Shown: positions 1 through 52,470 of the stretch, one piece after another | Layout of the letters: the number at the start of each line of letters is the position of its first letter | Numbering within the stretch: position 1 is the stretch's first letter | Notes under the pieces: generated by a model | Told to the model about the DNA's origin: nothing | The model's input: only the letters and a program-made list of their open reading frames with translations | Database searches by the model: none | From: a virus | DNA: 64,000 nucleotides | Virus record (IMG/VR): IMGVR_UViG_3300027971_000044 | Coordinates: 17,487 to 81,486 of that record | Reading direction: 5' to 3' (one strand) | Program-made: the position numbers and the translations under genes

Positions 1-953
1 GAATAGTTACAACATCAGGTGGAAATACAATTCACACTTTTAATGCTAGTGGTAATTTTGAAACTTCATATTCTGTTGCAGCTAAAGCAACTGGTGGTGC
101 AATAAATACAGACGGAAGTTATTTTTATCATGTATTTAATGATTCAGGAACATTTACTCCTACTCAATCTTTAACTGCTGACATTTTAGTTGTTGCAGGT
201 GGCGGTGGAGCCAGTATGGGAACAGGTGCTGGTGGCGGTGGAGCAGGTGGTTTTAGAGCTATAACATCTCGTGCCGTAACATCAGGAACTGCATACACAG
301 TTACCGTTGGTAGTGGCGGTGCTCCTGCTGCTCCTGACACTGTTCGTAGTGAAAGCGGAAATAACTCATCTTTTTCTGGAACAGGATTTGCAACAATTAC
401 CGCTACTGGCGGTGGCGCAGGTGCTGCTGAAAGTTCAACCACTCCTGCTTCTGGTGGTTCTGGAGGCGGTGGTATGTATAGCACATCTGGAGCATCAGGA
501 AACTCTGGTGGTTATACCCCTGTCGAAGGTTATGCAGGTGGTAGTGGCATAGGTGCAGCTTCTGGTTTTTATGGCGGAGGCGGAGGCGGTGGAGCAAGTT
601 CTGTAGGTGGAAATGCTGCTAGTCTAAATGGTGGTGCAGGTGGTGCTGGTGCAACTACTCCAATATCTGGTGGTGCAACTACTGGTGCTGGTCAATTAGT
701 AAACGGAAATTATTATTTTGCTGGCGGCGGAGGTGGTGGTACACAATTTACCGTTTCAAATACTACCGCTGGTGTTGGTGGTAATGGTGGAGGTGGAGCA
801 GGATCAGCAGATAACACAGGTGGTTCATCTCGTTTGGCACCTGGAATTTCTGGAACTCCAAATACAGGCGGAGGCGGTGGCGGAGCTGGTGGCGATAATT
901 CACTAGGAGGAGCTGGCGGCTCAGGAATAGTAATTATTCGTTACGCAGTATAA
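1..953 (+). CDS. Tail fibre/adhesin with Gly-rich receptor-binding domain (5' partial)
   Basis: The frame is open from base 3 to the TAA at 951-953, so the start lies outside the window. The visible part opens with a short beta motif (NTIHTFNASGNF) and a linker (ATGGAINTDGSYFYHVF). A long Gly-rich domain follows, beginning DILVVAGGGGASMG and ending GGSGIVIIRYAV. The linker and Gly-rich segment match the second half of the double-headed protein at 7954-10539. The missing part therefore probably holds FN3-like domains and a first Gly-rich head; this is inference. Gly-rich domains of this kind cap receptor-binding tail fibres of many phages. The domain call is good, the receptor is unknown. Confidence 0.8.
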   Translation, partial: IVTTSGGNTIHTFNASGNFETSYSVAAKATGGAINTDGSYFYHVFNDSGTFTPTQSLTADILVVAGGGGASMGTGAGGGGAGGFRAITSRAVTSGTAYTVTVGSGGAPAAPDTVRSESGNNSSFSGTGFATITATGGGAGAAESSTTPASGGSGGGGMYSTSGASGNSGGYTPVEGYAGGSGIGAASGFYGGGGGGGASSVGGNAASLNGGAGGAGATTPISGGATTGAGQLVNGNYYFAGGGGGGTQFTVSNTTAGVGGNGGGGAGSADNTGGSSRLAPGISGTPNTGGGGGGAGGDNSLGGAGGSGIVIIRYAV

Positions 954-958
954 AACAA

Positions 959-987
959 TAGACTTATCATTTAATAAATGGTAAAAT
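959..987 (+). promoter_or_regulatory. Sigma70-like promoter, extended -10
   Basis: TAGACT (959-964), 17-nt spacer, TAAAAT (982-987) preceded by TG, giving AATGGTAAAAT. The same 11-mer occurs at 14494-14504. It sits between two adhesin genes and would start a leader of about 30 nt ending in AAAGGAGA before the ATG at 1023. Confidence 0.5.
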
Positions 988-1022
988 ATAAATAAGTAAG
1001 ACAACTAACAAAGGAGAAAAAA

Positions 1023-1406
1023 ATGGCACACTTCGCAGAAATCGACGAGAACAACATTGTTACTCGTGTTCTAGTAGTAAATGACGCTGATGCAGCTGAT
1101 GGACAGAACTTTCTGGCCAACACTTTGAATCTAGGCGGAACATGGATACAGACTTCATATAACACTTCAGGTGGCGTACACGCAAACGGCGGTACCCCTG
1201 TAAGAAAAAATTATGCAGGAATTGGATATTCATACGACTCAGTTCGTGATGCATTTATCCCACCAAAGCCTTTTGCTTCATGGTTACTAAATGACGCAAC
1301 ATGTCTTTGGGAAGCTCCAACAGCAATGCCTGTTGAAGAGGGTAAAATGTTCAGATGGGTTGAAGAAGATTTAAACTGGCAAGAAATAGTAATACCACAG
1401 GAGTAA
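1023..1406 (+). CDS. Phage structural protein of unknown function
   Basis: A 127-residue protein starting MAHFAEIDENNIVTRVLVV, with a strong Shine-Dalgarno (AAAGGAG) upstream. The middle reads GGTWIQTSYNTSGG and RKNYAGIGYSYD, followed by PPKPFASWLLND. I recognise this pattern from hypothetical proteins of marine and freshwater phages, often near tail fibre genes; no biochemical role is known to me. It has its own promoter-like sequence (959-987) and ends 6 nt before the next adhesin. It may be a small tail-decoration or fibre-associated protein. Confidence 0.7.
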   Translation: MAHFAEIDENNIVTRVLVVNDADAADGQNFLANTLNLGGTWIQTSYNTSGGVHANGGTPVRKNYAGIGYSYDSVRDAFIPPKPFASWLLNDATCLWEAPTAMPVEEGKMFRWVEEDLNWQEIVIPQE

Positions 1407-1412
1407 TTTAAA

Positions 1413-3089
1413 TTGACTAGAGCAAGGGATGTAGCAAACGTTCTATCTACCGCCACATCTCTGGCGACAGATACTGAAACGGCTGCCGCCATCTCTAGTC
1501 ATAATTCTTCTACAACAACAGTTCACGGTATTTCAGATACAGCAGCATTAGCAACACAGACTTATGTTCAAAACAATAAGGGAATAAATAAAGGCAATAC
1601 TGCCTCACGTCCTGCATCTCCTGCAAATGGAGATTTATATTATAATACAGAAACATCCACTCTTGAAGTATATGATGGAGGATGGTGGATTCCAAATACC
1701 GCTCCAGGAATTCCTACATCACCAGTTGCAACAAACTCAGGATCAGCACGGGCATTTAATAATGGTAGAGCCTCAGTAGCTTTTACTCCTGCAACAAGCG
1801 GCGGAAAAGCAACATCATTTACAGTTACTTCAACACCAGGCTCATATACAAATACAGGTTCATCTAGTCCTATTGTAGTTACTGGTTTACAATCAAGTAC
1901 AGCATATACTTATGCGGTTACAGCAACTGGACCACTTGGAACATCTTCTGCATCATCTGCGAGTAGCGCAGTTACTGCAACAACTGTGCCACAGGCACCT
2001 AGTATAAGCGCTGTAGGAGCATCTCAGTCAGCTACAATTACAATTACAGCAGGGGCAACTGGTGGTTCAGCAATTACAGGATATTCAATAGTTTCAAGTC
2101 CAGTAACTACTACTCAAACAACATCTAACACAACATATACTTTTACAGGACTTACCGATGGTACAGCGTATACGTTTACTGCAACAGCAACAAATACAAA
2201 TGGAACATCAGTATCAAGTGCTGCAAGTAGTTCTGTTACCCCAGTATCAACTGCAGTTTCTGGAGGAACATTATCATCTGACGCAACTTATTATTACAGA
2301 ACATTTACTGGAACTGGAAATTTAATTATTTCTGGATCAGCATTAACATGTGATTATTTAATTGTAGCAGGCGGCGGCGGTAGTATGGGACAAGGCGCAG
2401 GCGGCGGCGGCGCAGGCGGACTTAGAACATTTACATCACAAAATTTAAATGCAGGTACTTACACAGCAACTATCGGCGGCGGTGGTGGACCAGGAGTTGG
2501 ATCTTCAACTACAACTTCTGCTTATAATGGTCAGAACTCATCTTTTAATGGCGCATCAGCAACTGGCGGTGGAGTAGGAGCGGGTCGCAACACTGATGGT
2601 ACCGCAAACGCTTATGCTGGTGGCTCTGGTGGCGGTGGAGGAAATGGCCGTTCAAACTCTGGTGGAGCAGGTAACGCAGGATCTTACACTCCAGTAGAAG
2701 GTTATAAGGGTGGAGATGCATCAGGAGATAATCCTCCCTATGGTGGTGGAGGCGGCGGCGGAGCAGGAGGTGCTGGAAGCAATAATGATGCTTCTGGAGG
2801 AAATAGAAATGGTGGGATTGGTGCAACATCAGCATTACTTAATGCAATGGGTGCTGCTACATCTACAGGACAACTAAGTGGTGGAAATTATTATTTTGCA
2901 GGTGGCGGTGGAGGACTTGCTGACTCTGCTTCATCTTCAGGAGGCCTTGGTGGCGGAGGAATCTATAGCACATCAACTGGTGGAACAAATGGAACAACAA
3001 ATACTGGCGGAGGTGCTGGTGGCGGAAACAAAGCTGGTGGCTCAGGTATAGTTATTGTTAGATATCTTAGATCGGCAGTAGGTGGATAA
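1413..3089 (+). CDS. Tail fibre adhesin: trimerising N-terminus, two FN3-like domains, Gly-rich head
   Basis: A 558-residue protein from a TTG start, chosen because CAGGAG lies 8 nt upstream and the product (M)TRARDVANVL matches the N-terminus of the paralogue at 7954. Residues about 20-50 (ISSHNSSTTTVHGISDTAAL) resemble the coiled segment of many phage fibres. A conserved GNTASRPASPANGDLYYNT block follows. Two FN3-like beta domains cover about 90-275. A Gly-rich domain runs from DYLIVAGGGGSMG to GGSGIVIVRYLR. The TAA at 3087-3089 overlaps the next ATG. It probably binds host surface sugars or proteins; the ligand is unknown. Confidence 0.85.
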   Translation: MTRARDVANVLSTATSLATDTETAAAISSHNSSTTTVHGISDTAALATQTYVQNNKGINKGNTASRPASPANGDLYYNTETSTLEVYDGGWWIPNTAPGIPTSPVATNSGSARAFNNGRASVAFTPATSGGKATSFTVTSTPGSYTNTGSSSPIVVTGLQSSTAYTYAVTATGPLGTSSASSASSAVTATTVPQAPSISAVGASQSATITITAGATGGSAITGYSIVSSPVTTTQTTSNTTYTFTGLTDGTAYTFTATATNTNGTSVSSAASSSVTPVSTAVSGGTLSSDATYYYRTFTGTGNLIISGSALTCDYLIVAGGGGSMGQGAGGGGAGGLRTFTSQNLNAGTYTATIGGGGGPGVGSSTTTSAYNGQNSSFNGASATGGGVGAGRNTDGTANAYAGGSGGGGGNGRSNSGGAGNAGSYTPVEGYKGGDASGDNPPYGGGGGGGAGGAGSNNDASGGNRNGGIGATSALLNAMGAATSTGQLSGGNYYFAGGGGGLADSASSSGGLGGGGIYSTSTGGTNGTTNTGGGAGGGNKAGGSGIVIVRYLRSAVGG

Positions 3090-3562
3090 TGGCCAATAAA
3101 GACTTTAAAGTAAAAAATGGGTTAGATATCCAGACACCCCTTGCTGTTTCTATGGGCGGAACTGGACAAACCTCTACAACTAATACATTAAACTCTTTGC
3201 TCCCGTCCCAATCTGGAAATAGCAATAAAGTATTATCAACAGACGGAACTAATACAACTTGGGTAGCACAATCAGTTGGATTTCCTTCATCTTCTGTAAA
3301 CTCAAATGTAACTCTTGTTTCTAATAACAAGTATTTTGTTGATACATCAACTTCCAGAACTATAACCTTGCCTTCATCACCATCTGTGGGAGATGAGATA
3401 TATGTATTTGATGCATCAGGATCTGCGGGAGCGTATAATATAACTGTGAACAGAAACTCAAATTATATAAATGGGTCTTCGTCAAATTTAATTATAGATG
3501 TTAATGGTGGTGCTGCTAGTTTTACATATACTGGCGGTAGCTACGGTTGGAAGGCAGGATAA
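3089..3562 (+). CDS. Short fibre-stem protein paired with the next adhesin
   Basis: A 157-residue protein starting MANKDFKVKNGLDIQ, then MGGTGQTSTTNTLNSLLPSQ, a motif common in phage tail fibres. The C-terminal half (SRTITLPSSPSVGDEIYVFD ... YGWKAG) is a beta domain shared with the ends of the proteins at 5391 and 10539. Start and stop overlap both neighbours as TAATG, so it should be translationally coupled to the adhesin at 3562. It is likely a connecting or trimerising stem. The three stem-plus-adhesin pairs (3089/3562, 5391/6374, 10539/11156) behave as one repeated cassette. Confidence 0.75.
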   Translation: MANKDFKVKNGLDIQTPLAVSMGGTGQTSTTNTLNSLLPSQSGNSNKVLSTDGTNTTWVAQSVGFPSSSVNSNVTLVSNNKYFVDTSTSRTITLPSSPSVGDEIYVFDASGSAGAYNITVNRNSNYINGSSSNLIIDVNGGAASFTYTGGSYGWKAG

Positions 3563-5337
3563 TGTCAGACATTAGACTATCAGGATTTTCACTTCCTTAT
3601 ACAACTGGAACTACAGGCAATAGGCCTGCTAATCCAGCAGAAGGAACACAATATTTTAATACAACAATTGGCGGACTTCAAGTTTATGTAAATGGGCAGT
3701 GGTCAACACATCAAAAACCAACTGATATTATTGCTCCATCTGGGGCTACTGCTACAAATCAAGGATCTGGGCGGGCATTTAATAATGGTCAAGCATCTAT
3801 AGCATTTACAACTTCAGAATTAGGAGGTCCAGCATCTAGTTATGTAGTTACATCTACTCCTGGATCTTATACTCAAACAGGAACATCTTCTCCGATAGTA
3901 GTAACAGGACTTCAATCTAATACATCATATACGTACACCGTTGCTGCTTCAAATTCATACTCATCTGCTACATCTGCAGCTTCAGCAGCAGTTACCGCAA
4001 CTACTGTGCCACAGGCACCAACAATAAATTCAGTAACAAATGGAAATTTACAAGCATCGATTGCATTTTCTGCAAACGCTACAGGCGGATCATCTATTAC
4101 AGGATTTACAGTAACATCAAGTCCAGGTGGACTTACAGCAACTGGTGCATCGTCACCATTAGTTGTAACAGGTTTAACAAATGGTACAGCATACACATTT
4201 ACTGCAGTTGCAACAAATACAAATGGAACATCAACGGCAAGTTCAGCATCTTCATCGATAACTGCAGCAACAGTTCCAGGTGCTCCAACTATTGGAACCG
4301 CAACTCAAACAGGAGCAACAACTGCAACATTAACATTTACAGCTCCTGCAAGTAATGGTGGATCAATTATTACAAGTTATACTGCTACATCATCTCCAGG
4401 AAGTATTACCTCTACATTAAATCAGGCGGGATCTGGAACATTTAATATTACTGGATTAACTGCTACTACTTCTTATACATTTACAGTAACAGCGACAAAT
4501 GCTGCTGGAACTTCTTCTGCTAGTTCTTCTAGTAATTCAATTACAACACCTTCTGCTGGAACAGAAATAGAATATTTGGTTCTAGCTGGAGGCGGAGGCG
4601 GCGGAGTTGATTATGCAGGCGGCGGAGGTGCTGGAGGATACAGAACAAATTATGGTGGAACAAAAATATTAATAAATAATTCAAGTCAATATACAATTAC
4701 AGTTGGCGGAGGCGGTCAGGGAGGAAGTAGAAATAACGGTGACAACGGGGGTATTGGAACAGTCTCAGGAATTTATCTTTCTGGTTCTCCAGTAATTGAA
4801 TCTGCTGGTGGCGGATACGGATCCAGCTATTTTGGAAATGGCGGTAGCGGTGGTTCAGGCGGCGGAGGCGGAGGAGGATACGGTACACAAATTTATACTA
4901 CTGGAGGTTCAGGTAATACTCCAGCAACAACTCCTTCTCAAGGTAATAATGGAGGGGGAGGATATGGACCAAGCGGATATGGTGGGAATAGATACGGCGG
5001 AGGTGGCGGAAGCCCAACAGGAGCAGGAACTAGCGCAACTTCAAATTCTCCTGGAGTAGGAGCATCTGGTATATCTAATTCAATAAGTGGATCAGCGGTT
5101 ACTTATGGTCGTGGTGGAGACGGATGTACTAGTCAGCAAGCACAACCAACTAGAGGAACCACATCAAATCGTGGTGAAGGAGGCTCTGGCGGTGGAGAAA
5201 ACATTACAGGAACTGCTGGAAGTAATGGCATTGTAGTAATTAAAGCTAGCGTTCAGGCATCTTCTACAACTGGATCTCCATCTAATCCAAGTACTGGAGT
5301 ATACGTATTTAATAATAGTGGTACTATTACATTCTAA
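3562..5337 (+). CDS. Tail fibre adhesin with three FN3-like domains and Gly-rich head
   Basis: A 591-residue protein. The ATG at 3562 is preferred over an in-frame ATG 15 nt upstream: it gives MSDIRLSGFSLPY, matching the N-termini at 6374 and 11156, and it overlaps the upstream TAA. After a GNRPANPAEGTQYFNT block come three FN3-like domains separated by linkers such as TVPQAPTINSV and TVPGAPTIGTA. The Gly-rich head runs from EIEYLVLAGGGGGG. It ends with a beta tail (STGVYVFNNSGTITF) shared with the protein at 6374. The extra FN3 module compared with its paralogues points to domain-number variation. Confidence 0.85.
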   Translation: MSDIRLSGFSLPYTTGTTGNRPANPAEGTQYFNTTIGGLQVYVNGQWSTHQKPTDIIAPSGATATNQGSGRAFNNGQASIAFTTSELGGPASSYVVTSTPGSYTQTGTSSPIVVTGLQSNTSYTYTVAASNSYSSATSAASAAVTATTVPQAPTINSVTNGNLQASIAFSANATGGSSITGFTVTSSPGGLTATGASSPLVVTGLTNGTAYTFTAVATNTNGTSTASSASSSITAATVPGAPTIGTATQTGATTATLTFTAPASNGGSIITSYTATSSPGSITSTLNQAGSGTFNITGLTATTSYTFTVTATNAAGTSSASSSSNSITTPSAGTEIEYLVLAGGGGGGVDYAGGGGAGGYRTNYGGTKILINNSSQYTITVGGGGQGGSRNNGDNGGIGTVSGIYLSGSPVIESAGGGYGSSYFGNGGSGGSGGGGGGGYGTQIYTTGGSGNTPATTPSQGNNGGGGYGPSGYGGNRYGGGGGSPTGAGTSATSNSPGVGASGISNSISGSAVTYGRGGDGCTSQQAQPTRGTTSNRGEGGSGGGENITGTAGSNGIVVIKASVQASSTTGSPSNPSTGVYVFNNSGTITF

Positions 5338-5355
5338 ATAATTCAATGCTATAAT
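5327..5355 (+). promoter_or_regulatory. Promoter with extended -10 AATGCTATAAT
   Basis: TTACAT (5327-5332), 17-nt spacer, TATAAT (5350-5355) with TG two bases before. It overlaps the end of the upstream adhesin. The 11-mer AATGCTATAAT is identical to that at 18952-18962. It would drive the stem-adhesin pair from 5391. Confidence 0.5.
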
Positions 5356-5390
5356 TAAGTAATAAACAACTAGGGGAAATGTGAACTTAG

Positions 5391-6374
5391 ATGGCAAATA
5401 AAGACTTTAAGGTCAAGAATAAACTTGTTATATCAGGTTTAACTAACGCTAATGGCGTTTTGCTATCTGAAAATAATTCTGTTGATTCCCACACAAATTT
5501 AGCTACACAATATGGCGGAACTGGAACAACAACCTCTCCTACTTCTGGCCAAATATTATATTCAACTTCGGGCTCTACATATGCCCCAACTACTTTAGCA
5601 TCATTAATTCAAGGATCTAGTTATCAAGCAGATGCTCCTTCTTCCCCCGACATTGGCGATATATGGATTGAATCAGATTCTACTTCAGACTCATTTGACC
5701 CCAACATTATTCGCCGTCATACATTTACAGCAACGGCGGGACAAACAAATTTCGTAGCATCAGTAGCATTTATAGATGGATATGAGCAGGTATACTTCAA
5801 TGGTCTTCTACTATTAAAGACAACAGATTATACAACATCTTCTAGCACTACCGTTATTCTTAGTTCCGCCGCAGCAGCAGGCGACATTATAGAGATAGTT
5901 ACAATAACAAATTTAAACTCAACTAATACATATACTCAGTCTGAGATTAATACTATTGTTACAACTCAGGTAAATAATTTAATTGATAGCGCTCCATCTG
6001 CCCTAAATACACTTAATGAATTAGCGGAGGCATTGGGCGATGATGCAAGTTTTGCTACAACAGTTACTACATCTTTAGGAACTAAAAAGACAGAAGTATC
6101 TGCATCAATATCAGCCAATACAAATTTAGTGGCAGGACGTAGATATTTTGTAACATCTGCTTCTGCTCTTACTCTAACATTACCCTCATCACCTTCAGTA
6201 AATGATCAAATAGATGTATTTGATGCTTCTGGAAACGCTTCGACGTATAATATAACTGTGGCCCGTAACGCCAAGTTAATTAATGGTAATGCGGGAAATC
6301 TAATTATTGACGTAAACGGCGGATGGTTTACTCTTGTCTTTACAGGTAATACATATGGATGGAAGGTAGCATAA
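5391..6374 (+). CDS. Fibre-stem protein, long form
   Basis: A 327-residue protein starting MANKDFKVKNKLVISGLTN, a paralogue of 3089-3562. In order it contains a GGTGTTTSPTSGQILYST linker, a beta domain (VYFNGLLLLKTTDYTTS), a helical ALNTLNELAEALGDDASF segment and the shared C-terminal domain (LTLTLPSSPSVNDQIDVFD ... YGWKVA). The middle modules are familiar from cyanophage and marine phage fibres. An AGGGGA lies 13 nt before the ATG; no better start exists because a stop codon directly precedes it in frame. It overlaps the adhesin at 6374 by TAATG. Confidence 0.75.
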   Translation: MANKDFKVKNKLVISGLTNANGVLLSENNSVDSHTNLATQYGGTGTTTSPTSGQILYSTSGSTYAPTTLASLIQGSSYQADAPSSPDIGDIWIESDSTSDSFDPNIIRRHTFTATAGQTNFVASVAFIDGYEQVYFNGLLLLKTTDYTTSSSTTVILSSAAAAGDIIEIVTITNLNSTNTYTQSEINTIVTTQVNNLIDSAPSALNTLNELAEALGDDASFATTVTTSLGTKKTEVSASISANTNLVAGRRYFVTSASALTLTLPSSPSVNDQIDVFDASGNASTYNITVARNAKLINGNAGNLIIDVNGGWFTLVFTGNTYGWKVA

Positions 6375-7954
6375 TGGCCGATTTAAGAGCATCAGGATTA
6401 GGTGGGGTTCCAAAAGGAACAACCGCAAGTAGACCATCATCTCCATCAGTTGGTGACGTATTTTATAATGGCGATTTAGGTTACTTAGAAATGTATACCG
6501 CACAAGGATGGTTTGCATCTTCACCAGTTCTTCCAGGACAGCCTACTTCAGTAGTTGCTACAAACTCAGGAACATCTAGAGAATTTAATAATGGTAGAGC
6601 ATCTGTAGCATTTAACGTTGGAACTAATGGCGGGCTTCCAACATCATTTACAGTTACCTCTTCTCCAGGATCATATACAGCATCTGGATCAACTTCTCCA
6701 ATATTAGTTACAGGACTTCAATCATCAACACAATATACATATACCGCTACAGCAACTAATAATTTTGGAACATCATCTGCATCATCTGCGAGTAGCGCAG
6801 TAACTGCAACTACTGTTCCACAGGCACCAAGCGTAAGCGCTGCATCTAGCAACGCACAAGCAACAATTACAATCACACCTGGAGCAACAGGTGGTTCTGC
6901 AATTACAGGATACTCAATTGTTTCAAGCCCAGCAACTACTACTCAGACAACTTCAAATACAACTTATACATTTACAGGATTAACAAATGGAACATCTTAC
7001 ACATTTACTGCAACAGCTACAAATGCTAATGGAACATCGGCATCAAGCGCTGCAAGTAGCTCTATAACACCACTTAACGTTATGAGTTATTTAGTTGTAG
7101 CAGGAGGTGGCGGAGGTGGAAGCCACATCGGCGGAGGCGGTGGTGGAGGAGGAGTAAGAAGTGGAACAATTCCAACAGTCCCTGGAACTTACAATATAGT
7201 TGTGGGGTCAGGAGGAGTAGGCTCATTAGATACTAATGGTACAAATGGTACTAGTGGATTAAACTCGTCGTTTGGCTCAATTACCGCAACTGGTGGAGGT
7301 AAAGGAGGTTCAGGACTTGCAAATGGCACTAGCGGAGGTTCTGGCGGAGGATCAGGACATGGTCCAACTAATGGAGTAGGTGGATCTGGTAATGTCGGCT
7401 CATATTCACCAGTAGAAGGATATGCTGGAGGAACTGGAACACAGAATGGAATGCATGCAGGTGGCGGTGGCGGTGGCGCAGGCGGAGTAGGTGCAAATGG
7501 TAACTCATCTGGGTTTGGAGGCAACGGAGGAGTTGGAATAGAAAATTTAATTCTTGGCACTTCTTATTATTGGGCAGGAGGCGGGGGTGGAACAACTGGA
7601 GTAGGACAAACTGGATTAACTGCAGGTAGCGGCGGACTAGGAGGCGGAGGAGGAGCTTCTATTGAAGGTTCTCCAAACACTGCAGGAATAGGTGGAGGCA
7701 GCGCATTAAATAATGGTGGCAATGGAAGTTCTGGAGGCTCTCCAGCAGCAAAAGCTGGAAATGGAGGACAGTACACTGGCGGTGGCGGTGGCGGTGGTTC
7801 TCACGCAAGCGGAGATGGTGGTGAAGGTGGTTCTGGAATAGTTATTATTTCTTTACCAAATGCAGCAATTTCAACTACAGGGTCTCCGATATTAACAAAT
7901 CCAGACGGAAGATATGTTTATAGATTTAACAATACAGGAAGCATAACTTACTAA
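6374..7954 (+). CDS. Tail fibre adhesin: two FN3-like domains and Gly-rich head
   Basis: A 526-residue protein starting MADLRASGLGGVPKG, taken from the ATG that overlaps the upstream TAA. A GTTASRPSSPSVGDVFYNGD block leads into two FN3-like domains. Their DNA is very close to that of 1413-3089, for example the stretch around 6779 against 1948. A Gly-rich head (SYLVVAGGGGGG ... GGSGIVIISLPN) follows, with a short C-terminal beta tail ending RFNNTGSITY as in the protein at 3562. Its stop overlaps the ATG at 7954. It is probably a host-range determinant. Confidence 0.85.
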   Translation: MADLRASGLGGVPKGTTASRPSSPSVGDVFYNGDLGYLEMYTAQGWFASSPVLPGQPTSVVATNSGTSREFNNGRASVAFNVGTNGGLPTSFTVTSSPGSYTASGSTSPILVTGLQSSTQYTYTATATNNFGTSSASSASSAVTATTVPQAPSVSAASSNAQATITITPGATGGSAITGYSIVSSPATTTQTTSNTTYTFTGLTNGTSYTFTATATNANGTSASSAASSSITPLNVMSYLVVAGGGGGGSHIGGGGGGGGVRSGTIPTVPGTYNIVVGSGGVGSLDTNGTNGTSGLNSSFGSITATGGGKGGSGLANGTSGGSGGGSGHGPTNGVGGSGNVGSYSPVEGYAGGTGTQNGMHAGGGGGGAGGVGANGNSSGFGGNGGVGIENLILGTSYYWAGGGGGTTGVGQTGLTAGSGGLGGGGGASIEGSPNTAGIGGGSALNNGGNGSSGGSPAAKAGNGGQYTGGGGGGGSHASGDGGEGGSGIVIISLPNAAISTTGSPILTNPDGRYVYRFNNTGSITY

Positions 7955-10539
7955 TGAGCAGAATCAGAGATATAGCAAATTTATTCAGCGCAAATACGTC
8001 GGCAGCGACGGACTCTGAAGTAACTACTGCTATCTCTGCACATAACTCTTCAACAACAACAGTACATGGTATTTCTGATACTGCCGCCCTTGCTACATCT
8101 ACATCTGTAACATCTGCAATATCAACACATAATACAACTGCTAATGGACATGTTAAGAGAGGCAATACTGCTTCTCGTCCCGCTTCACCTACAACTGGTG
8201 ACATGTATATGAATACACAATTAGGCTACCCAGAATTTTATGAAGGAACGGCATGGATTCCAATTGGAGCAGATCCAACTGCGCCATCATCTGTAGTTGC
8301 TACAAACTCAGGATCTGGGCGGGCATTCAATAATGGTCAAGCATCTGTTGCATTTACAGCAGGAACAGTACCAGGATCTAGCTATACAATAACATCTTCC
8401 CCAGGTTCTTATTATAATACTGGCTCATCATCTCCCATCCTTGTATCAGGATTGCAATCAAATACATCTTATACTTTTACTGCCACCGCATCAAATGTTT
8501 ATAACACATCTGTTGCCTCATCTGCGAGTAGCGCAATTACTGCAACTACAGTGCCTGCTGCACCAAGCGTAAGCGCTGTTGGAGCAAATCAATCAGCTAC
8601 ACTTACATTAACAGGTGCAACAGGTGGCTCTGCAATTACTTCATGGTCAATTACATCAAGCCCAGCAACTACAACACAAACAGCTTCATCTTCACCTTAT
8701 ACTTTTACTGGACTTACAAATGGCACATCTTATACATTTACTGCTACAGCAACAAATGTTAATGGTACATCAGCAGCAAGTAGCGCAAGCAGTAGCATAA
8801 CTGCAGTAAACCCAGACTTTGCTGTTAATTATTTAGTCATAGCAGGCGGCGGTGGCGGCGGAGGCGGAGTAAATAATGGCGGTGGTGGCGGAGGTGCTGG
8901 AGGATTACGTTCAACCGTAACAGCAACAGGCGGCGGAGGCTCCCTTGAGTCCCCAATAACTGTTTCAAGTAACACTGCTTACACAGTTATAGTCGGAGCA
9001 GGCGGCGGCGGCGGTAGCGGTAGCTCATTAGATAGTACCCAAGGTACAGATTCTGTATTTTCTACAATTACCTCAACAGGTGGTGGCAAAGGTTCAAATG
9101 TAGATAGCGATGGTGGCTACACTGCTAGTGGTGGCGCAGGTGGTTCGGGTGGCGGTGGTTACGGTAGCAACCCACGATCAGGTGGAACAAGAACTGCAAG
9201 CCCCGTACAAGGGTTTAATGGTGGTGGTGTAAGTGGTAGTATTTGGGATGGCGCAGGTGGCGGTGGCGGTGCTGGTGCTGTTGGCGGGGATGGTGTGGCA
9301 GGAACCTCATCACCTGCTTCAACATCAGGTTCTGGTGGTAACGGTATAGCAGTTGCAATTTCAGGTTCATCTATTACTTATGCTGGAGGCGGCGGCGGTG
9401 CTTCAAGATATGGTTCTGACGGTGCAGGAGGCTCAGGAGGCGGAGGTGCTGGTGGCGCAGTAGGATCATCTGGTGGTTCAGGATCAGAAAACTTTGGCGC
9501 AGGTGGTGGCGCAGGTGGAGGTGGCACAGGCGGTGCAGGAGGTTCAGGTATTGTAATTATTCGATACGCAGGACTTACACAAAAAGCAACAGGTGGAACT
9601 GTAACCAATGATGGTACAAATACAATACATACATTTACTTCTTCAGGAAGCTTCTATACTGGAATTATAAGTTCTGTTAAAGCAACAGGCGGAAATATTT
9701 CAACTGATGGTACTTATTGGTATCACGCATTTACTGGCACAGGAACATTTACTCCTACACAATCTATAACTACCGAAATTTTAGTAATTGCAGGCGGCGG
9801 CGGCGGTGCTTCTAATACTTCAGGAGGTTCTTCAGGTGGTACAGGCGGAGGAGGTGCTGGTGGATTAAGATTACTTACTTCTCAATCTTTAACAGTAACT
9901 GCCTATACTTGCACCGTAGGAAGCGGTGGCGCAGGATCAGTATCATCTGGATTCAGTGGTTCTAATGGACTTAATTCATCAATTTCTGGTTCAGGATTTA
10001 CAACTATTACTGCTTCAGGCGGCGGCGGCGGTTCGGGAACTGGATCTGGTAATGGTCTTGCAGGAGGCTCAGGAGGAGGCGGATATGGATATCCATTAAA
10101 TACACATAATGGCGGTGCTGGTAACTCAGGTGGATATGCTACAGTTGAAGGTTACGCTGGTGGTAGAGGTTATACAGATGGCGTAAATTATACTACTGGT
10201 GGTGGCGGAGGAGGCTCAGCCGCAGCAGCAACACAAAAACTTAATAGTAACGGTGCTGACGGTGGGGCTGGAACACAGCTGACTGCTTGGTCTACAGCAA
10301 CTGGCACTGGTGTTTCTGGTTATTATGCTGGCGGCGGAGGCGGCGGCGGAAGCATAAACGGTGGTGTTGGTGGAACTGGTTCAGCAGGTGGTGGTAATGG
10401 AAGCGCAATTGGCGCTAATGCTTTTAGTGCAAGAGTAAACACTGGCTCAGGAGGAGGCGGTGTTGGTGGTGGTTCAAGCGCTTTCTACCGAGGCGGCACG
10501 GGTGGTTCAGGAATTATTATAGTGAGGTACCCAGTATAA
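7954..10539 (+). CDS. Double-headed tail fibre adhesin (two Gly-rich domains)
   Basis: At 861 residues this is the largest complete member of the array. The N-terminus MSRIRDIANLFSANTS and ISAHNSSTTTVHGISD segment match 1413. Two FN3-like domains follow, then a first Gly-rich head ending GGSGIVIIRYAG. A bridge with NTIHTFTSSGSF and STDGTYWYHAF leads to a second Gly-rich head from EILVIAGGGGGAS to IIIVRYPV. Duplication of the head within one protein is visible directly. The partial gene at the left edge has the same bridge, so at least two double-headed adhesins probably exist. Confidence 0.85.
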   Translation: MSRIRDIANLFSANTSAATDSEVTTAISAHNSSTTTVHGISDTAALATSTSVTSAISTHNTTANGHVKRGNTASRPASPTTGDMYMNTQLGYPEFYEGTAWIPIGADPTAPSSVVATNSGSGRAFNNGQASVAFTAGTVPGSSYTITSSPGSYYNTGSSSPILVSGLQSNTSYTFTATASNVYNTSVASSASSAITATTVPAAPSVSAVGANQSATLTLTGATGGSAITSWSITSSPATTTQTASSSPYTFTGLTNGTSYTFTATATNVNGTSAASSASSSITAVNPDFAVNYLVIAGGGGGGGGVNNGGGGGGAGGLRSTVTATGGGGSLESPITVSSNTAYTVIVGAGGGGGSGSSLDSTQGTDSVFSTITSTGGGKGSNVDSDGGYTASGGAGGSGGGGYGSNPRSGGTRTASPVQGFNGGGVSGSIWDGAGGGGGAGAVGGDGVAGTSSPASTSGSGGNGIAVAISGSSITYAGGGGGASRYGSDGAGGSGGGGAGGAVGSSGGSGSENFGAGGGAGGGGTGGAGGSGIVIIRYAGLTQKATGGTVTNDGTNTIHTFTSSGSFYTGIISSVKATGGNISTDGTYWYHAFTGTGTFTPTQSITTEILVIAGGGGGASNTSGGSSGGTGGGGAGGLRLLTSQSLTVTAYTCTVGSGGAGSVSSGFSGSNGLNSSISGSGFTTITASGGGGGSGTGSGNGLAGGSGGGGYGYPLNTHNGGAGNSGGYATVEGYAGGRGYTDGVNYTTGGGGGGSAAAATQKLNSNGADGGAGTQLTAWSTATGTGVSGYYAGGGGGGGSINGGVGGTGSAGGGNGSAIGANAFSARVNTGSGGGGVGGGSSAFYRGGTGGSGIIIVRYPV

Positions 10540-11156
10540 TGGCTAAATTAATAAGAGTATGGGATGGAAGTGCTTGGCAAGAAGTCGGCACCGCTATTCC
10601 TAATGGCCTTACAACAGATGGAACCCAAACATTAACTAATAAAACAATTAATCTTGCCAGTAATACTTTTACTGGAACTACCGCCCAATTTAATACGGCA
10701 TTATCTGATGCCGACTTTACAACTTTGGCGGGAACCCAAACATTAACTAATAAAACTATATCTGGTGCATCTAATACTTTAACTAATATTGGAAATGCCT
10801 CCCTAACTAATTCAGCAATTACCGTTAATGGGTCCGCCGTTTCTTTGGGCGGAAGCGTAACAATAGTTACAGGTCCAGCATCATCTGCGGTATCATCTAA
10901 TATAACAATGGCGGCTAACAATAATTACTTTGTAAATACTTCAGCGGCAAGAACACTTACTCTTCCTGCCAGCCCTACCCTAGGAGACACTATTGCAATA
11001 TATGATGCATCAGGGACGGCGGCAACAAACAATATTACAATAGCAAGAAACGGCAGCAATATTAATGGAGTAGCAGATAATGCTATAATAGATGTAAATC
11101 AATCAAGTTCAGTATTTATATATACAGGCGCAACAGTTGGGTGGAGGTTCGATTAA
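10539..11156 (+). CDS. Fibre-stem protein with TLTNKTI repeats
   Basis: A 205-residue protein starting MAKLIRVWDGSAWQEVG. Two GTQTLTNKTI motifs, a typical phage fibre repeat, precede ITVNGSAVSLGGSVTIV. The C-terminal half carries the shared domain (RTLTLPASPTLGDTIAIYDA ... VGWRFD) of the proteins at 3089 and 5391. The N-terminus differs from those two, so only the C-terminal module has been exchanged. It overlaps both neighbours by TAATG. Confidence 0.75.
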   Translation: MAKLIRVWDGSAWQEVGTAIPNGLTTDGTQTLTNKTINLASNTFTGTTAQFNTALSDADFTTLAGTQTLTNKTISGASNTLTNIGNASLTNSAITVNGSAVSLGGSVTIVTGPASSAVSSNITMAANNNYFVNTSAARTLTLPASPTLGDTIAIYDASGTAATNNITIARNGSNINGVADNAIIDVNQSSSVFIYTGATVGWRFD

Positions 11157-12673
11157 TGGCAATTAGAAAATCAGGTATATCAGGTATTCCTTTTGGAAAT
11201 ACAGCAGCACGTCCTGCTAGTCCATCATTGGGTCAGCCATATTTTAACGGCGAAGTTGGAAGACTTGAGCTATACTCATCAAACGGTTGGCAGAACATTG
11301 TTCAGGAAACTCCTGGTATATCTAGCGCATCTGGAACATATAATCAATCTACAGGTTCTGGAACATTTACAATTTCAGGAACTAACTTTGTTGATGGAGG
11401 AATTGCATATGCAGTTGGAACAAACGCAACTGAGTATCAAGCAACTACAACAACATATAATTCAATTGTTCAAATGACTGCTTTATTTACTGGTCTGTCA
11501 CCAGATTACGAGCCATATGATATTAAGGTTACAAATCCTTCAAATTTATTTGGATTATTACCAGACGCATTTTATATAAATGATTCACCAGTATGGAGCA
11601 CATCCTCTGGTTCATTAGGAACCTATACTGGATCTAGTATTCAATTGGCAGCAACTGATGATGAATCAAATACAATTACGTATTCTGTAACATCAGGGTC
11701 TTTGCCCGCAGGAGTATCTTTATCATCTAGTGGTTTAATCTCAGGAACAGCAACATCTGCAGGAACATTTACATTTACAGTATCAGCTTCTGATGGAAGC
11801 AATACAGCAGTAACAAGATCTTTCAGTATTATTGTTTATCCAACAATTTCTGGAGGCTCTTTAACTTCTGATTCAACCTATTATTATAGAGCCTTTACTG
11901 GAACTAGTAATTTAGTAGCTTCTTTGGGAACATTAAATGCAGATGTTCTTGTAGTTGGCGGAGGCGGAGGCGGAGGAAGTTGTATCGGAGGAGGAGGCGG
12001 AGCGGGAGGATATAAAAATCAACAACTTGCAATAACAGCTGGAACGCACACTGTCACAATAGGAGGCGGAGGAACTGGAGTTGCAGGAAGAACCAGCCAA
12101 TCTACCAATGGCCTACCAAGTAGTATAGGATCTTTAATTTCTAGTCTTGGTGGTGGAGGCGGAGGAAGTTATCAGACTTATGCTTTAAATGGCGGTTCAG
12201 GAGGCGGAGGAGCATCGTACGGCCTTGGGTCAGCTTATTCTGCCAAGGGTCTTGGTACAAGCGGTCAAGGTAACGACGGTGGTGACGGTAACAATAATGT
12301 TAGCGATATGTCTGTTGGTGCAGGCGGCGGAGGAGCAGGAAGTGTAGGTCAAATTGGATCTTTAAATAAAGGTTCTTCAGGCGGAGGCGCTGGGCAAGGA
12401 GTTCAAAGTTCAATCTCAGGATCTGCTATAACTTATGCAGGCGGAGGAAACGGCGGAGGACATAACGGTGGTTCAGGTCCAGGTCTTGGCGGACAAGGTG
12501 GACCAACAACTGCAGGTTGGAAAAATACTGGTGTTGAAACTGGAAGCAACGGTGTTGTTAATACTGGTTCAGGAGGCGGAGGCGGATCTTATAATGGTGG
12601 TGACCCCCGTGGAGGTGACGGAGGATCAGGAATAGTAATCGTCCGTTACACAAAAGCATCTGTAGGCGGTTAG
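11156..12673 (+). CDS. Tail fibre adhesin with Ig-like domains and Gly-rich head
   Basis: A 505-residue protein starting MAIRKSGISGIPFGNTAARP. The conserved N-terminal block and the Gly-rich head (ADVLVVGGGGGGGS ... GGSGIVIVRYTK) match the array. The middle differs: an IPT/TIG-like segment (GTFTISGTNFVDGGIAYAVG) is followed by a putative Ig domain (LPAGVSLSSSGLISGTATSA) in place of FN3. The C-terminal KASVGG resembles the RSAVGG end at 1413-3089. Head and N-terminus have stayed while the spacer domains were swapped. Confidence 0.85.
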   Translation: MAIRKSGISGIPFGNTAARPASPSLGQPYFNGEVGRLELYSSNGWQNIVQETPGISSASGTYNQSTGSGTFTISGTNFVDGGIAYAVGTNATEYQATTTTYNSIVQMTALFTGLSPDYEPYDIKVTNPSNLFGLLPDAFYINDSPVWSTSSGSLGTYTGSSIQLAATDDESNTITYSVTSGSLPAGVSLSSSGLISGTATSAGTFTFTVSASDGSNTAVTRSFSIIVYPTISGGSLTSDSTYYYRAFTGTSNLVASLGTLNADVLVVGGGGGGGSCIGGGGGAGGYKNQQLAITAGTHTVTIGGGGTGVAGRTSQSTNGLPSSIGSLISSLGGGGGGSYQTYALNGGSGGGGASYGLGSAYSAKGLGTSGQGNDGGDGNNNVSDMSVGAGGGGAGSVGQIGSLNKGSSGGGAGQGVQSSISGSAITYAGGGNGGGHNGGSGPGLGGQGGPTTAGWKNTGVETGSNGVVNTGSGGGGGSYNGGDPRGGDGGSGIVIVRYTKASVGG

Positions 12674-12676
12674 CCT

Positions 12677-14449
12677 ATGTCATATCAACTTAAAGTAATT
12701 AAAGACTATCCTATCGGCTTCTGGCCATTGGATGAGTCTTCTGGCACCACCGCCCTAGATATTTCTGGATGTGGCAATACAGGTACATACACTGGCGGAA
12801 TTACAACAGGATTAATTCCACTTGTTTCAGGCGGAGCAAATGGATCCCTTATAACTAATACTAAATACATAACATTACCCGTAACTAAAGATTATTATGG
12901 ATCTACCGCCGATGGCGGATTTGCAGATACAAACTCATCAGATAATGCATTCTCATTAGAGGTGTGGTTCTATCCTAAAATTACAACAACTGGCCTAACA
13001 ACTATATTTGCAGACTCTACAAAAAATGTTGGAATCTTCTATGAAAAGGGAAACATAGTATTTAAACTTGAGGCGGAAAGACTTGATTATACTTTACCTA
13101 ATATCAGCCAATCTCATCATATTGTAGCTACATACTCTGTTACAGAAATGTCATTATATGTAGATGGCAAATTTGCTGTAAGCAAACCTTTAACTAATTA
13201 TAACTTTACCAATGCCACAATTACATTAAAATTGGGGCCAACCCCAAATGCATCTGATTCTTTTATTGTAGATGCTCCAGCAGTATATAGATATGCTTTG
13301 GGATTAGATAGAATTGTAGAACATTTTGAATACTCTGGTACCACTTCTCCCCTTCAAATTTCATATCCAGATGGTGGAACATTATTTGAAATATATGATG
13401 ATAGCGTAAGCAAGCAATTTAATTTTGCATATCCCGCCAACCGCCCATTAGAATATTTTGCTACAGAGTATTTATCCTATAACACAGAAGAGAAATGTTT
13501 AGAGATTAAGAAAACGGCCTCTGCAGCCTCTAGGAGCGTAGTTGTGACAGACGCCATAGCAATTCCTGCAGGATTCGATCTGGACTCCTCTAAGATAGAG
13601 TGGAACGGCGATAACGGGGTCTCTGTAAGAACTTCTATAGATGGAACAACATGGCAAGCATGTGCTAATGGGAAAGCCATTCCTCAATTTAGATTAGGAG
13701 CATTTAGTTCTGAAAGAACCCTTTATCTTGAGATAACATTTACCTCATCAGATACAACTAAATTCCTTCCACGACTTTATAGCCTTCTAGTGTGCTTTTA
13801 TAAAGATCAGGTTTTATATTCCCCTAGCAACCCAGACTACATTTATACAATAGAGGCGACATCTGGATTTGCTTCAAAAGATATGACTCTAGGAAGAATT
13901 AGATACCCTATTTTGTCCCGCCAAAAGCTAAATGGGCTGACAACAGCAGAAGGGGCGGGATTCAAAATTAACACCGCAGAATCAATTAGAACAATAGAGT
14001 TCTTCTTAACCCTATCAGATTTATCAACAAATTCTATTTTGTTAAGCGGAGCAAATGGAAACTTTGTATCCGCAAGATATTCATGGATAACAAATGGAAC
14101 TCTTACTAAATCTAATATATCTGCTATTTATGTAAATGGAGTAAACCAGACATCCCAAACAAATGTAGCCTCAGTATTTACAGCAAATGAGCTTTACCAT
14201 GTGGTAATAGTAACAAGTGGGCCAATTACAGGAGCAATCCTATTTAATCACACAGCAACAGGGGGTCCTTCTAGCCTTTATCAGTATATCTCTTATTACC
14301 CGTCCGCCTTTAATTCAACCCTTGCCTTGTCTCACTATAATATGCACATAGGTAGATCAGCCACAATTGCAGACGATTCGTCCATAACTTTGACAGAAAA
14401 CTCTGTAGACTTCTACGACAATGACTGGATTGTGTTGCAGAGTATATAA
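12677..14449 (+). CDS. LamG-like (concanavalin-fold) tail fibre protein
   Basis: A 590-residue protein. Residues 10-60 (IGFWPLDESSGTTALDISG) are the typical opening of phage LamG/laminin-G-like jelly-roll domains. LEVWFYPK and a YVDGKFAV strand continue it to about residue 220. A second sandwich-like region at about 395-590 contains IYVNGVNQT and ends NDWIVLQSI. It follows the adhesin array by 3 nt and probably belongs to the same host-recognition apparatus as a carbohydrate-binding spike. A hairpin follows the stop codon. Confidence 0.75.
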   Translation: MSYQLKVIKDYPIGFWPLDESSGTTALDISGCGNTGTYTGGITTGLIPLVSGGANGSLITNTKYITLPVTKDYYGSTADGGFADTNSSDNAFSLEVWFYPKITTTGLTTIFADSTKNVGIFYEKGNIVFKLEAERLDYTLPNISQSHHIVATYSVTEMSLYVDGKFAVSKPLTNYNFTNATITLKLGPTPNASDSFIVDAPAVYRYALGLDRIVEHFEYSGTTSPLQISYPDGGTLFEIYDDSVSKQFNFAYPANRPLEYFATEYLSYNTEEKCLEIKKTASAASRSVVVTDAIAIPAGFDLDSSKIEWNGDNGVSVRTSIDGTTWQACANGKAIPQFRLGAFSSERTLYLEITFTSSDTTKFLPRLYSLLVCFYKDQVLYSPSNPDYIYTIEATSGFASKDMTLGRIRYPILSRQKLNGLTTAEGAGFKINTAESIRTIEFFLTLSDLSTNSILLSGANGNFVSARYSWITNGTLTKSNISAIYVNGVNQTSQTNVASVFTANELYHVVIVTSGPITGAILFNHTATGGPSSLYQYISYYPSAFNSTLALSHYNMHIGRSATIADDSSITLTENSVDFYDNDWIVLQSI

Positions 14450-14453
14450 ATTT

Positions 14454-14480
14454 GTCCAACTTTGTGACAAAAAGCTGGAC
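14454..14480 (+). terminator. Possible hairpin after the fibre operon
   Basis: GTCCA (14454-14458) plus CTTT pairs with AAAG plus TGGAC (14476-14480), with one internal A/C mismatch and a 7-nt loop. No long T run follows, so termination is uncertain. The right arm overlaps the -35 of the next promoter. Confidence 0.3.
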
Positions 14481-14504
14481 TTGTGTATGAAATAATGGTA
14501 AAAT
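14476..14504 (+). promoter_or_regulatory. Promoter giving a leaderless or near-leaderless start at 14513
   Basis: TGGACT (14476-14481), 17-nt spacer, extended -10 AATGGTAAAAT ending at 14504. The ATG at 14513 is 8 nt downstream and no Shine-Dalgarno lies between, so transcription should begin at or next to the start codon. It heads the head-morphogenesis operon. Confidence 0.5.
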
Positions 14505-14512
14505 AAATTACT

Positions 14513-14854
14513 ATGGATATTAATCGCATAAATACCAAAGTCCTTGAAGAAGAATCTACTCTTGGGATATATGTTTGGGAAATGCCAGACGGCAGATGGA
14601 TAGGAGATGACGATGGGAACTTTCTTTCAGTCACGTCCAAAAAAGGAAATAGATCCAGAATCGATGCTTTGGCTAGAGAAGTTCGCTCATTCGGTATTTA
14701 TGAAGGCGGGCCTAAATTTCTTTCTGCAAGAAGAAAAATTGACGATGAAGAATTCCAACACCAAAAGCAAAGACTTGACTGGGGACTAGTCCCAGACCCA
14801 CTAGATATTGGAAGCTATAAAGACGATATGAAAAAGTTAAGGGGTATAAGATGA
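14513..14854 (+). CDS. Hypothetical protein upstream of portal
   Basis: A 113-residue acidic and basic mixed protein. It opens MDINRINTKVLEEESTLGIY, contains YVWEMPDGRWIGDDDGNFLS, and ends in a helical, Lys-rich segment. I do not recognise a named family; small proteins directly before the portal are common in actinophages. The stop overlaps the portal start as ATGA, implying coupled translation. It may be a head-associated or portal-assembly factor. Confidence 0.65.
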   Translation: MDINRINTKVLEEESTLGIYVWEMPDGRWIGDDDGNFLSVTSKKGNRSRIDALAREVRSFGIYEGGPKFLSARRKIDDEEFQHQKQRLDWGLVPDPLDIGSYKDDMKKLRGIR

Positions 14855-48634: not shown

Positions 48635-48657
48635 TAGGTTAAGAGGCGGAGAGTTAA

Positions 48658-51927: not shown

Positions 51928-52139
51928 CAGACGACATAGAAGGCCTAGTCACTTCAATTAATATGAACCAGGTTCTGGTTGCTATTCTTGAAGAGCATGG
52001 CAAATTAGCTGTACCGACATTAAGATTTTTAGATGTCAATGTTAGCAATAAGGAATTAGTAATAGATTATGACGAGACAGTCCCGTCATTTACTTTTAGT
52101 TTAAGGGAAAAAGATGCAGTCGGATCAGATTCTAACTGA
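51924..52139 (+). CDS. Hypothetical protein
   Basis: A 71-residue protein starting MTDDIEGLVTSINMNQVLVA, then ILEEHGKLAVPTLRFLDVNV. An N-terminal helix precedes beta strands. The start overlaps the polymerase stop (ATGA) and its end overlaps the MazG-like gene by 26 nt. No function recognised. Confidence 0.55.
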   Translation: MTDDIEGLVTSINMNQVLVAILEEHGKLAVPTLRFLDVNVSNKELVIDYDETVPSFTFSLREKDAVGSDSN

Positions 52140-52461
52140 GTATGGCCTAGACGCTCTGTCTGCTATTCTTCATGAAATTGCAATAGAAAAAGGATTTTGG
52201 GATGGAGAATATAACCACGACAAGATTGGTAACAAATTAGCTTTAGTTCATTCTGAAGTAACTGAAGTTCTAGAAGCAATTAGAAAGTCAAAGGGAAGCG
52301 AAAGTATTGTAGAAGAAATGTCTGATGTAATTATCAGACTATTAGATATTTATGCAGCAATGAGAAATGAAGAGCAAGTATTACATAGCCTAGATGAAAT
52401 TCTAGAAAAGAAAATTAATATAAATAAGGAACGCCAAAGGCTTCACGGAAATTTATTTTAA
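52114..52461 (+). CDS. MazG-like nucleotide pyrophosphohydrolase
   Basis: A 115-residue all-helical protein. LALVHSEVTEVLEAIRKS supplies the ExxE pair, and VEEMSDVIIRLLDIYA the ExxD-type second half; the two acidic helices bind Mg2+ and the NTP phosphates. It hydrolyses NTPs or dNTPs to monophosphates and may adjust nucleotide or ppGpp pools. Position between polymerase and RecA fits a nucleotide-metabolism role. Confidence 0.8.
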   Translation: MQSDQILTEYGLDALSAILHEIAIEKGFWDGEYNHDKIGNKLALVHSEVTEVLEAIRKSKGSESIVEEMSDVIIRLLDIYAAMRNEEQVLHSLDEILEKKININKERQRLHGNLF

Positions 52462-52470
52462 TGCTATACT
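52442..52470 (+). promoter_or_regulatory. Promoter with extended -10 AATGCTATACT
   Basis: TTCACG (52442-52447), 17-nt spacer, TGC plus TATACT (52465-52470). The 11-mer AATGCTATACT is identical at 62145-62155. It gives recA its own start. No clear Shine-Dalgarno precedes 52491 except GGAAAGAAAGAG. Confidence 0.5.

Follow-up and report, generated by a model that had tools for sequence, protein, structure and literature searches.

The seven tandem tail adhesins of this freshwater phage combine N-termini that are specific to their position in the array with glycine-rich heads that have no link to position, and sequence comparison strongly supports the exchange of modules between related phages. 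Relatives keep the slots and the N-termini, exchange the spacers, and replace the heads, which supports the modular array with swappable domains proposed in an earlier note on this DNA. We think it probable that the locus encodes a multi-slot adhesin rack on the siphophage tail, with heads and stalks exchanged between relatives and the different adhesins displayed together.

The window analyzed here is a 64-kb stretch of an 81-kb record; coordinates prefixed L009 refer to the full record and all others to the window. In the full record, the adhesin block covers 23 kb between a ribonucleotide reductase (RNR) gene and a LamG-domain gene and encodes seven glycine-rich adhesins (G1 to G7) with nine heads in total. 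The six consecutive large genes described earlier are indeed present as large open reading frames, but the count is seven, with the array beginning upstream of the window, and the single block that they form has small adaptor genes interspersed among the adhesins. Three small genes with a common C-terminal domain lie between the adhesins of the window, along with a Tfa-like gene, and one more lies upstream. The common N-terminal block holds for six of the seven adhesins, but the N-terminus of G2 differs. Glycine-rich heads occur, as had been stated, in all of the large reading frames (PF21722, E = 1e-9 to 5e-20); each of the six large proteins encoded in the window passed the curated cutoff of this profile, and the G1 head was found with our own profile. 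Given these E-values and the recurrence of its slots in some 20 further contigs, the array is not a product of chance. In ten genes (s1b, G1, s2, G2, s4, G4, G5, G6, s7, and G7), the start ATG shares one base with the stop codon just before it (TAATG), and promoters and terminators within the array showed no excess over shuffled sequence.

G1 (L009 13600-15399) lies upstream of the window. The two-headed G2 (L009 15803-18439; 878 amino acids) consists of its own N-terminus, IPT, PIG, and two heads, and its C-terminal part opens the window (3-953, plus strand, as are all of the window features that follow; second head, 150-947, PF21722 E = 4e-18). After it comes the Tfa-like small protein (phrog_7759; 1023-1406), which is 92 to 96% conserved in the nearest arrays and is possibly a fiber assembly factor with a chaperone role. 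G3 (1413-3089) has a slot-specific N-terminus (1413-1721), two FN3 domains (1722-2258), and a head (2328-3065). The small adaptor s4 (3089-3562; C-terminal domain, 3287-3559) precedes G4 (3562-5337), whose start ATG at 3562 overlaps the s4 stop and which carries the N-terminal block, three FN3 domains (3739-4554), a head (4543-5247), and a C-terminal tag. Adaptor s5 (5391-6374; C-terminal domain, 6099-6371) is 82 to 96% conserved in near relatives and is followed by G5 (6374-7954), with the N-terminal block, two FN3 domains (6557-7072), a head (7079-7735), and a C-terminal tag. G6 (7954-10539) has an N-terminus (7954-8292), two FN3 domains (8293-8808), and two heads (8809-9570 and 9745-10533), and adaptor s7 (10539-11156; C-terminal domain, 10881-11153) leads into G7 (11156-12673), with the N-terminal block, an IPT domain (11309-11575), a PIG/Ig domain (11576-11848), and a head (11924-12649). 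The LamG-domain gene (12677-14449) forms the right edge of the island, and the portal gene (14851-16434) marks the backbone beyond it. The variety of spacers reported earlier is thus real, with two FN3 domains in G3, G5, and G6, three in G4, and IPT plus He_PIG/Ig in G7 (FN3 domains were called with our own domain model), and so are the two double heads, in G6 and, once the part upstream of the window edge is read, in G2.

Slots were assigned by position alone in 16 genomes, and the slot of each module's nearest neighbor was compared with a permutation expectation. For the N-terminal 60 amino acids, the best match lay in the same slot in 43 of 47 cases (15.8 expected; P = 0.0002), and for the spacers, in 32 of 45 (15.1 expected; P = 0.0002). 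Heads showed no link to slot, with 14 same-slot best matches among 51 (17.0 expected; P = 0.82). Across about 20 genomes, same-slot N-termini have identities of 0.59 to 0.65 and cross-slot N-termini 0.27 to 0.32. Slot 6 illustrates the pattern: its N-terminal DNA is 97% identical to that of genomes G013 and G015, and its heads are at the background of any head pair.

The exchange of modules has to be weighed against rapid divergence of the heads in place, with selection acting on loops of a conserved scaffold and no transfer of modules. All heads are built on one glycine scaffold, on which very fast change could mimic replacement, yet same-slot heads are no nearer to each other than cross-slot heads, and DNA identity falls abruptly from 90 to 97% to about 55 to 60%, often at domain junctions. 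Distinct breakpoints lay within 10 amino acids of a junction in 11 of 19 cases (5.1 expected; P = 0.0045), an outcome that depends on defining junctions as those between neighboring domains, as no clustering was seen with domain starts alone as the reference. The same slot also exists in one-head and two-head versions among relatives, slot 7 has spacers of either the IPT/Ig or the FN3 kind, depending on the genome, and phage 027804_1746 provides one clear move, since its slot 7 (L094 4234-5853) contains the second FN3 domain, head, and tail of G5 (FN3b+head+tail). Head pairs with at least 50% identity at non-glycine positions are mainly same-slot (four, versus one cross-slot pair), as in-place divergence would have it; clear slot-to-slot moves are thus rare in this sample, and most head donors are unsampled phages. 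A trio of phages that are 99.9% identical has no single-nucleotide polymorphism in any head, and taken together these observations make divergence in place quite improbable.

Very improbable, in our judgment, is programmed variation, in which the array would be shuffled at high frequency within a lineage through its repeats and the phage RecA. The modules are indeed repeated in tandem, and the RecA that the earlier note had pointed to exists (a RecA/UvsX-type protein at 52491-53495, plus strand; PF00154 E = 8e-37). The near-identical FN3 DNA through which it saw a route for shuffling was not found: the best block, between G3 and G5, is 78% identical over 542 bp, and exact matches from one adhesin gene to another reach 26 bp at most, too little identity for that route. 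Groups of near-identical contigs (99.9 to 100%), from different samples, carry identical arrays, so that shuffling within the genome is unsupported on both counts. No reverse transcriptase (PF00078) was found in the 81-kb record, which speaks against a diversity-generating retroelement, and no integrase or resolvase (PF00239/PF00589) in that record, which may be incomplete. Window positions 1 to 14500 showed no long inverted repeat, only weak and scattered ones; neither the site-specific recombinase nor the module-flanking inverted repeats of an invertible tail fiber were found. Recombination between coinfecting relatives, across blocks that are 90 to 98% identical, fits the sequences better than intragenomic shuffling, and RecA/UvsX is a possible agent of such exchange. 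Whether the virion carries many adhesins at once or uses them as alternatives, both of which the earlier note had entertained, bears on the other half of our reading. Were they alternatives, one or two per virion would be selected by competition or by choice of expression, giving mixed phenotypes from one genome. A siphophage tail usually needs fewer adhesins, and some N-termini are related (G3/G6 and G1/G7, about 60% alike), so that some slots could share one dock. Competition for one dock would not, however, keep the N-termini slot-distinct over about 20 genomes, the genes form a single coupled operon, and no recombinase, reverse transcriptase, or invertible structure for switching was found in the sequence searched. 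We consider use as alternatives unlikely; slot-specific N-termini and TAATG-coupled genes favor simultaneous display.

In the rack that we propose, one coupled operon would produce seven adhesins, presumably as trimers. Each N-terminus, with its own XD1/gp9-type adaptor if present, would dock at its own place on the tail tip, so that one virion would carry different adhesins. FN3 or IPT/Ig domains would serve as stalks, and the glycine-rich tips would present variable loops on a constant scaffold to host-surface molecules. Heads, stalks, and whole genes would be replaced by homologous recombination between related phages, for which the conserved DNA of N-termini, stalks, and adaptors would provide the matching stretches, with an occasional head-and-stalk unit shifting to another slot.

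The heads resemble known glycine-rich tip proteins. An AlphaFold model of the G7 head (pLDDT 88.4) matched the fiber protein gp24 of cyanophage Pam3 best in a Foldseek search of the PDB (7YPX; E = 2.1e-5, probability 1.0), as well as the Bxb1 tail tip, and the model has the stacked glycine-motif fold of the gp24 type, at a TM-score to Pam3 of only 0.46 to 0.50. In Pam3 gp24, as in gp38 of Salmonella phage S16 (PMC9608196), glycine motifs form a scaffold for variable loops, and the variable loops of our heads may bind host-surface molecules; S16 gp38 was absent among the structure matches listed. Pam3 has one short fiber, whereas here seven adhesins, two of them two-headed, sit on FN3 or IPT/Ig stalks. 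The mycobacteriophages Bxb1 (PDB 9D93; chains Qa and Qb match our head model) and Mysterious are likewise actinobacterial siphophages with glycine-rich tail-tip domains, two polyglycine-domain tail proteins being predicted in Mysterious; fewer such proteins than our seven are reported there, and slot-and-head exchange is not described in the available part of that source (PMC13252515).

The C-terminal domain of the adaptors matches residues 91 to 174 of CBA120 TSP4 (E = 9.5e-10 by sequence, 3.6e-7 by structure), which places s4, s5, and s7 with the XD1 type by their shared profile, and it also matches T4 gp9. XD1 has been described as a spacer and not a binding domain (PMC8825819). The whole-protein model of s5 was poor (pTM 0.32), with the C-terminal domain alone interpretable, and relatives carry adaptor-adhesin fusions (sN+NTB+FN3+head). 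On our preferred reading, the locus encodes the siphophage equivalent of a branched multi-tailspike complex, its heads being plug-in units. Like the branched tailspikes of Ackermannviridae (CBA120 TSP1-4 and S117; PMC8825819, PMC11414711, PMC8432352), it encodes several receptor-binding proteins in a cluster, with conserved position-specific N-termini, assembly components that include an XD1/gp9-type domain, and receptor modules that move between proteins, here as slot-free heads and one clear move. Unlike them, it has its XD1-type domain in separate small proteins, glycine-rich heads in place of beta-helix depolymerases, and seven adhesins in an actinobacterial-type siphophage; a gp10-like jellyroll (XD2/XD3) was not found by sequence, with no TSP or gp10 match to G6, u2, or u4. 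Shuffling of receptor-binding protein domains likewise leaves the N-terminus constant and exchanges the C-terminal receptor module (PMC10684548), but here seven parallel slots in one genome allow anchor and tip to be compared slot by slot.

Gene order and polymerase and portal similarity indicate that this low-GC freshwater siphophage is related to the Stanwilliamsviridae (Streptomyces phages): in BillNye and Comrade, the order glycosyltransferase-RNR-(...)-LamG-portal matches, with LamG adjoining the portal gene there too, and polymerase and portal match at 58% and about 59%. The interval that holds 17 to 28 kb in our relatives contains one endolysin gene alone in the related Streptomyces phages. 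Named phages gave no DNA-level match to the array, nor did a tblastn search with G6. A Cytophagaceae metagenome-assembled genome was rejected as a host clue, since the portal scan of genomes gave a single 3-kb contig, probably stray. As in metaviromic islands of aquatic phages, including those of Nanopelagicales phages (PMC3909814, PMC10202952), host-recognition genes vary at a fixed place between conserved flanks (RNR, 86 to 97%; LamG or portal) and cassette types differ; in this case, the island spans 17 to 28 kb and comes in four or more cassette types, within one of which the slot and head structure is resolved.

A broader and more tentative proposal, which we hold to be possible although doubtful, is a universal plug-in system in which about seven noninterchangeable docks draw on a pool of interchangeable heads shared among freshwater actinophages, giving up to nine specificities per virion that are redrawn slot by slot. 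The array is a natural experiment in which mounting and recognition parts can be separated slot by slot in some 20 genomes. It makes testable whether freshwater phages of this kind carry many specificities together and how quickly their host recognition changes, and it extends multireceptor tail complexes, mainly known from phages of enteric bacteria, to siphophages related to Streptomyces phages.

The glycine-rich adhesins occupy a block of ~23 kb that runs from just past the ribonucleotide reductase (RNR) gene at L009 5226-7160 (L009 being the full record) to the LamG-domain gene at window 12677-14449. The window corresponds to positions 17487-81486 of the 81,486-bp virus record, and adding 17486 to a window position gives the L009 position. 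Reading the upstream part of the record showed that the array begins upstream of the window and comprises seven adhesins, G1 to G7, where the earlier note had counted six. Tail genes come first in the block (L009 7536-12519), followed by small genes and the adhesins. Pfam and profiles built in this analysis gave the domain orders: common N-terminal block, IPT, two PIG domains, and a head, the glycine-rich tip, in G1 (599 aa); an N-terminus of its own, IPT, PIG, and two heads in G2 (878 aa); an N-terminus and one head with two FN3 domains in G3 (558 aa), three in G4 (596 aa), and two in G5 (531 aa); an N-terminus, two FN3 domains, and two heads in G6 (861 aa); and an N-terminus, IPT, PIG, and one head in G7 (510 aa), for a total of nine heads. 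The small genes are interspersed among the adhesins; s2, s4, s5, and s7 have a common C-terminal domain, and one small gene is a member of phrog_7759, with "Tfa-like" as a working label for its putative role. The ATG overlaps the previous stop by one base in 10 genes (s1b, G1, s2, G2, s4, G4, G5, G6, s7, and G7), a count that presumes the downstream ATG as the start of G4, G5, and G7, and these overlaps suggest that translation is probably coupled from one adhesin to the next. Sites resembling promoters or terminators were no commoner in the array than in shuffled sequence.

Glycine-rich arrays of related contigs have recognizable positions, or slots, such as s5-G5-G6-s7-G7-LamG. To avoid circularity, slots were set solely by order after the s5 orthologue in 16 genomes from which near-duplicates had been removed, expectations came from within-genome permutation, and head comparisons disregarded Gly-Gly columns. 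The nearest neighbor in another genome came from the same slot for 43 of 47 N-termini (first 60 aa; 15.8 expected, p=0.0002), 32 of 45 spacers (15.1 expected, p=0.0002), and 14 of 51 heads (17.0 expected, p=0.82), p-values that are indicative, the genomes being related to one another. A broader set, with slot rules partly based on the N-terminus, gave 77/80, 60/80, and 28/93, respectively. In slot 6, DNA identity of our phage (G000) over the N-terminal part, spacer, and head is 97%, 82%, and 57% with G013; 97%, 80%, and 60% with G015; and 93%, 89%, and 56% with G014. Any pair of heads scores about the same identity, and slot-6 heads are therefore about as unrelated as a random pair, beside nearly identical N-terminal DNA. 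The slot-7 spacers are of the IPT/Ig kind in two genomes, G000 and G014, and consist of FN3 domains in G013, G015, and 027804_1746; one- and two-head versions occur in both slots 6 and 7. In the closely related L010 (portal identity, 97%), the gene product ahead of s7 (339-1988) carries an NTA-type N-terminus on IPT/PIG stalks rather than FN3.

One slot-to-slot move is clear: G5 shares ~50% identity with its slot-7 counterpart in 027804_1746 over the first 80 residues and 72 to 90% from about residue 160, head included. Slotted head pairs above 42% non-Gly identity number 7 within and 20 across slots, and those above 50% number 4 and 1; this same-slot excess above 50% indicates that close head pairs are mostly inherited and that the majority of head donors are unsampled. 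Of the 19 distinct events in which DNA identity drops from high to low, 11 are no more than 10 aa away from a domain junction (5.1 expected, p=0.0045); no clustering emerged when only domain starts were considered. The near-identical FN3 DNA proposed earlier as a route for shuffling did not hold up, as the best internal block (G3/G5) is only 78% identical over 542 bp and exact matches between adhesin genes reach at most 26 bp. The phage RecA was borne out (window 52491-53495; PF00154, E 8e-37); it lies in a cluster at 52114-56585 with genes for a MazG-like protein (slightly under the cutoff), SSB, a PD-(D/E)XK nuclease, and a RuvC-like protein.

Programmed switching among the adhesins would be an alternative source of variation. 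Near-identical contigs of different metagenome records, which may stem from repeated sampling at one site, carry identical arrays within each group; one such trio shows 18 differences over 15.4 kb, 15 of them in the portal gene, 3 in an FN3 gene, and none in a head. We found no reverse transcriptase, integrase, or resolvase in the 81-kb record, which may be incomplete, and no long inverted repeats in window 1-14500. Together, these observations argue against programmed switching. If the adhesins competed for a single dock, their N-termini would hardly be expected to differ from slot to slot and yet be conserved in each. The small proteins and slot-specific N-termini may assemble a branched tail-tip structure holding adhesins side by side, a model that homology and position support and in which one virion would display several adhesins together. 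The small-protein profile matches residues 91-174 of the CBA120 tailspike TSP4 (E 9.5e-10), and TSP4 is also the top PDB match of the small-protein (adaptor) model (E 3.6e-7), which is poor as a whole and has T4 gp9 among its matches. The matched stretch of TSP4 is its XD1 domain (residues 80-178), to which T4 gp9 is the closest structure; XD1 is regarded as a spacer, with XD2 and XD3 as binding modules (PMC8825819). In relatives, the N-terminal part of s4 is fused straight to the N-terminal block, FN3, and head.

The 99 aligned heads have invariant glycines with variable stretches in between. For the G7 head, AlphaFold gave a model with pLDDT 88 and pTM 0.88, whose top PDB matches are the tail fiber of Pam3 (7YPX, E 2.1e-5) and the tail tip of mycobacteriophage Bxb1 (9D93, E 2.4e-5). 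The Pam3 domain is described as having a conserved glycine stem and a hypervariable tip, the tip being the proposed receptor binder (PMC9608196); according to a preprint, polyglycine domains are associated with the Bxb1 central fiber (PMC13252515). Adhesin function, trimerization, and receptor binding are inferred.

The island itself varies among relatives, which were taken from IMG/VR as relatives of LamG, G6, and s5; every array-bearing one is a metagenome contig. RNR and LamG are 17 to 28 kb apart in records with both flanks, and at least four cassette types occupy the site: the glycine-rich array (A); a 1004-aa protein with a run of ~240-aa proteins including 2OG-Fe(II) oxygenase domains (B; G001, G004, and G007); a type with a 1165-aa protein (C; G003, G005, and G006); and a fourth (D; G012 and G023). 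By Pfam and PHROGs, examples of B and C contain virion structural, oxygenase, methyltransferase, and LamG families. In L012 (type B), oxygenase-domain proteins of ~240 to 290 aa (4954-5694 and 7805-8665) lie amid similar-sized genes. Cassette type does not track backbone relatedness: G001 is type B despite RNR, portal, and LamG identities of 97%, 90%, and 86%; G013 is type A with portal at 98% and capsid at 97%, yet LamG at just 44%; and portal identity is 97% in both L010 and L050, with type A beside LamG in L010 only. The LamG gene (window 12677-14449; L058, L073, and L010) is mosaic, at 44% where portal is 98% (G013) and 86% where portal is 90%, and in L035, L036, and L037 its match is 2280 bp long rather than the usual ~1770, an insertion of ~510 bp. 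In G022 (the contig of L149/L190), RNR appears as two overlapping matches (48640-50593) with one in-frame TAG, which may reflect an intron, a frameshift, or an assembly error.

In Streptomyces phage Comrade, the same neighbors flank just an endolysin gene; the related phage BillNye has the same gene order, and there a large unnamed gene takes the place of LamG. Our phage's CHAP-domain lysin (window 62190-62732) and transglycosylase (L009 3495-4133, opposite strand, ahead of RNR) sit elsewhere, the former distant from the island. Further genes encode a glycosyltransferase family 25 protein, a methyltransferase-like protein, and a DXD-sugar glycosyltransferase consecutively (window 56725-58637) and an HSP20-type small heat shock protein (63225-63710). 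Polymerase and portal of the Streptomyces phages are 58 to 59% identical to those of our phage, relatives from which we infer a probably actinobacterial host; GC is about 36 to 45%.

The array probably works like the branched multi-tailspike complex of the Ackermannviridae, in which each position keeps its own conserved N-terminus and receptor modules are exchanged (PMC8432352, PMC11414711). It is not classed as a member, because neither XD2/XD3 (by sequence) nor beta-helix bodies were found in the array, whose heads are glycine-rich. What is new is how many parallel slots one siphophage has, how cleanly N-termini tied to their slots contrast with heads that are not, and the replacement of whole cassettes at a single site.
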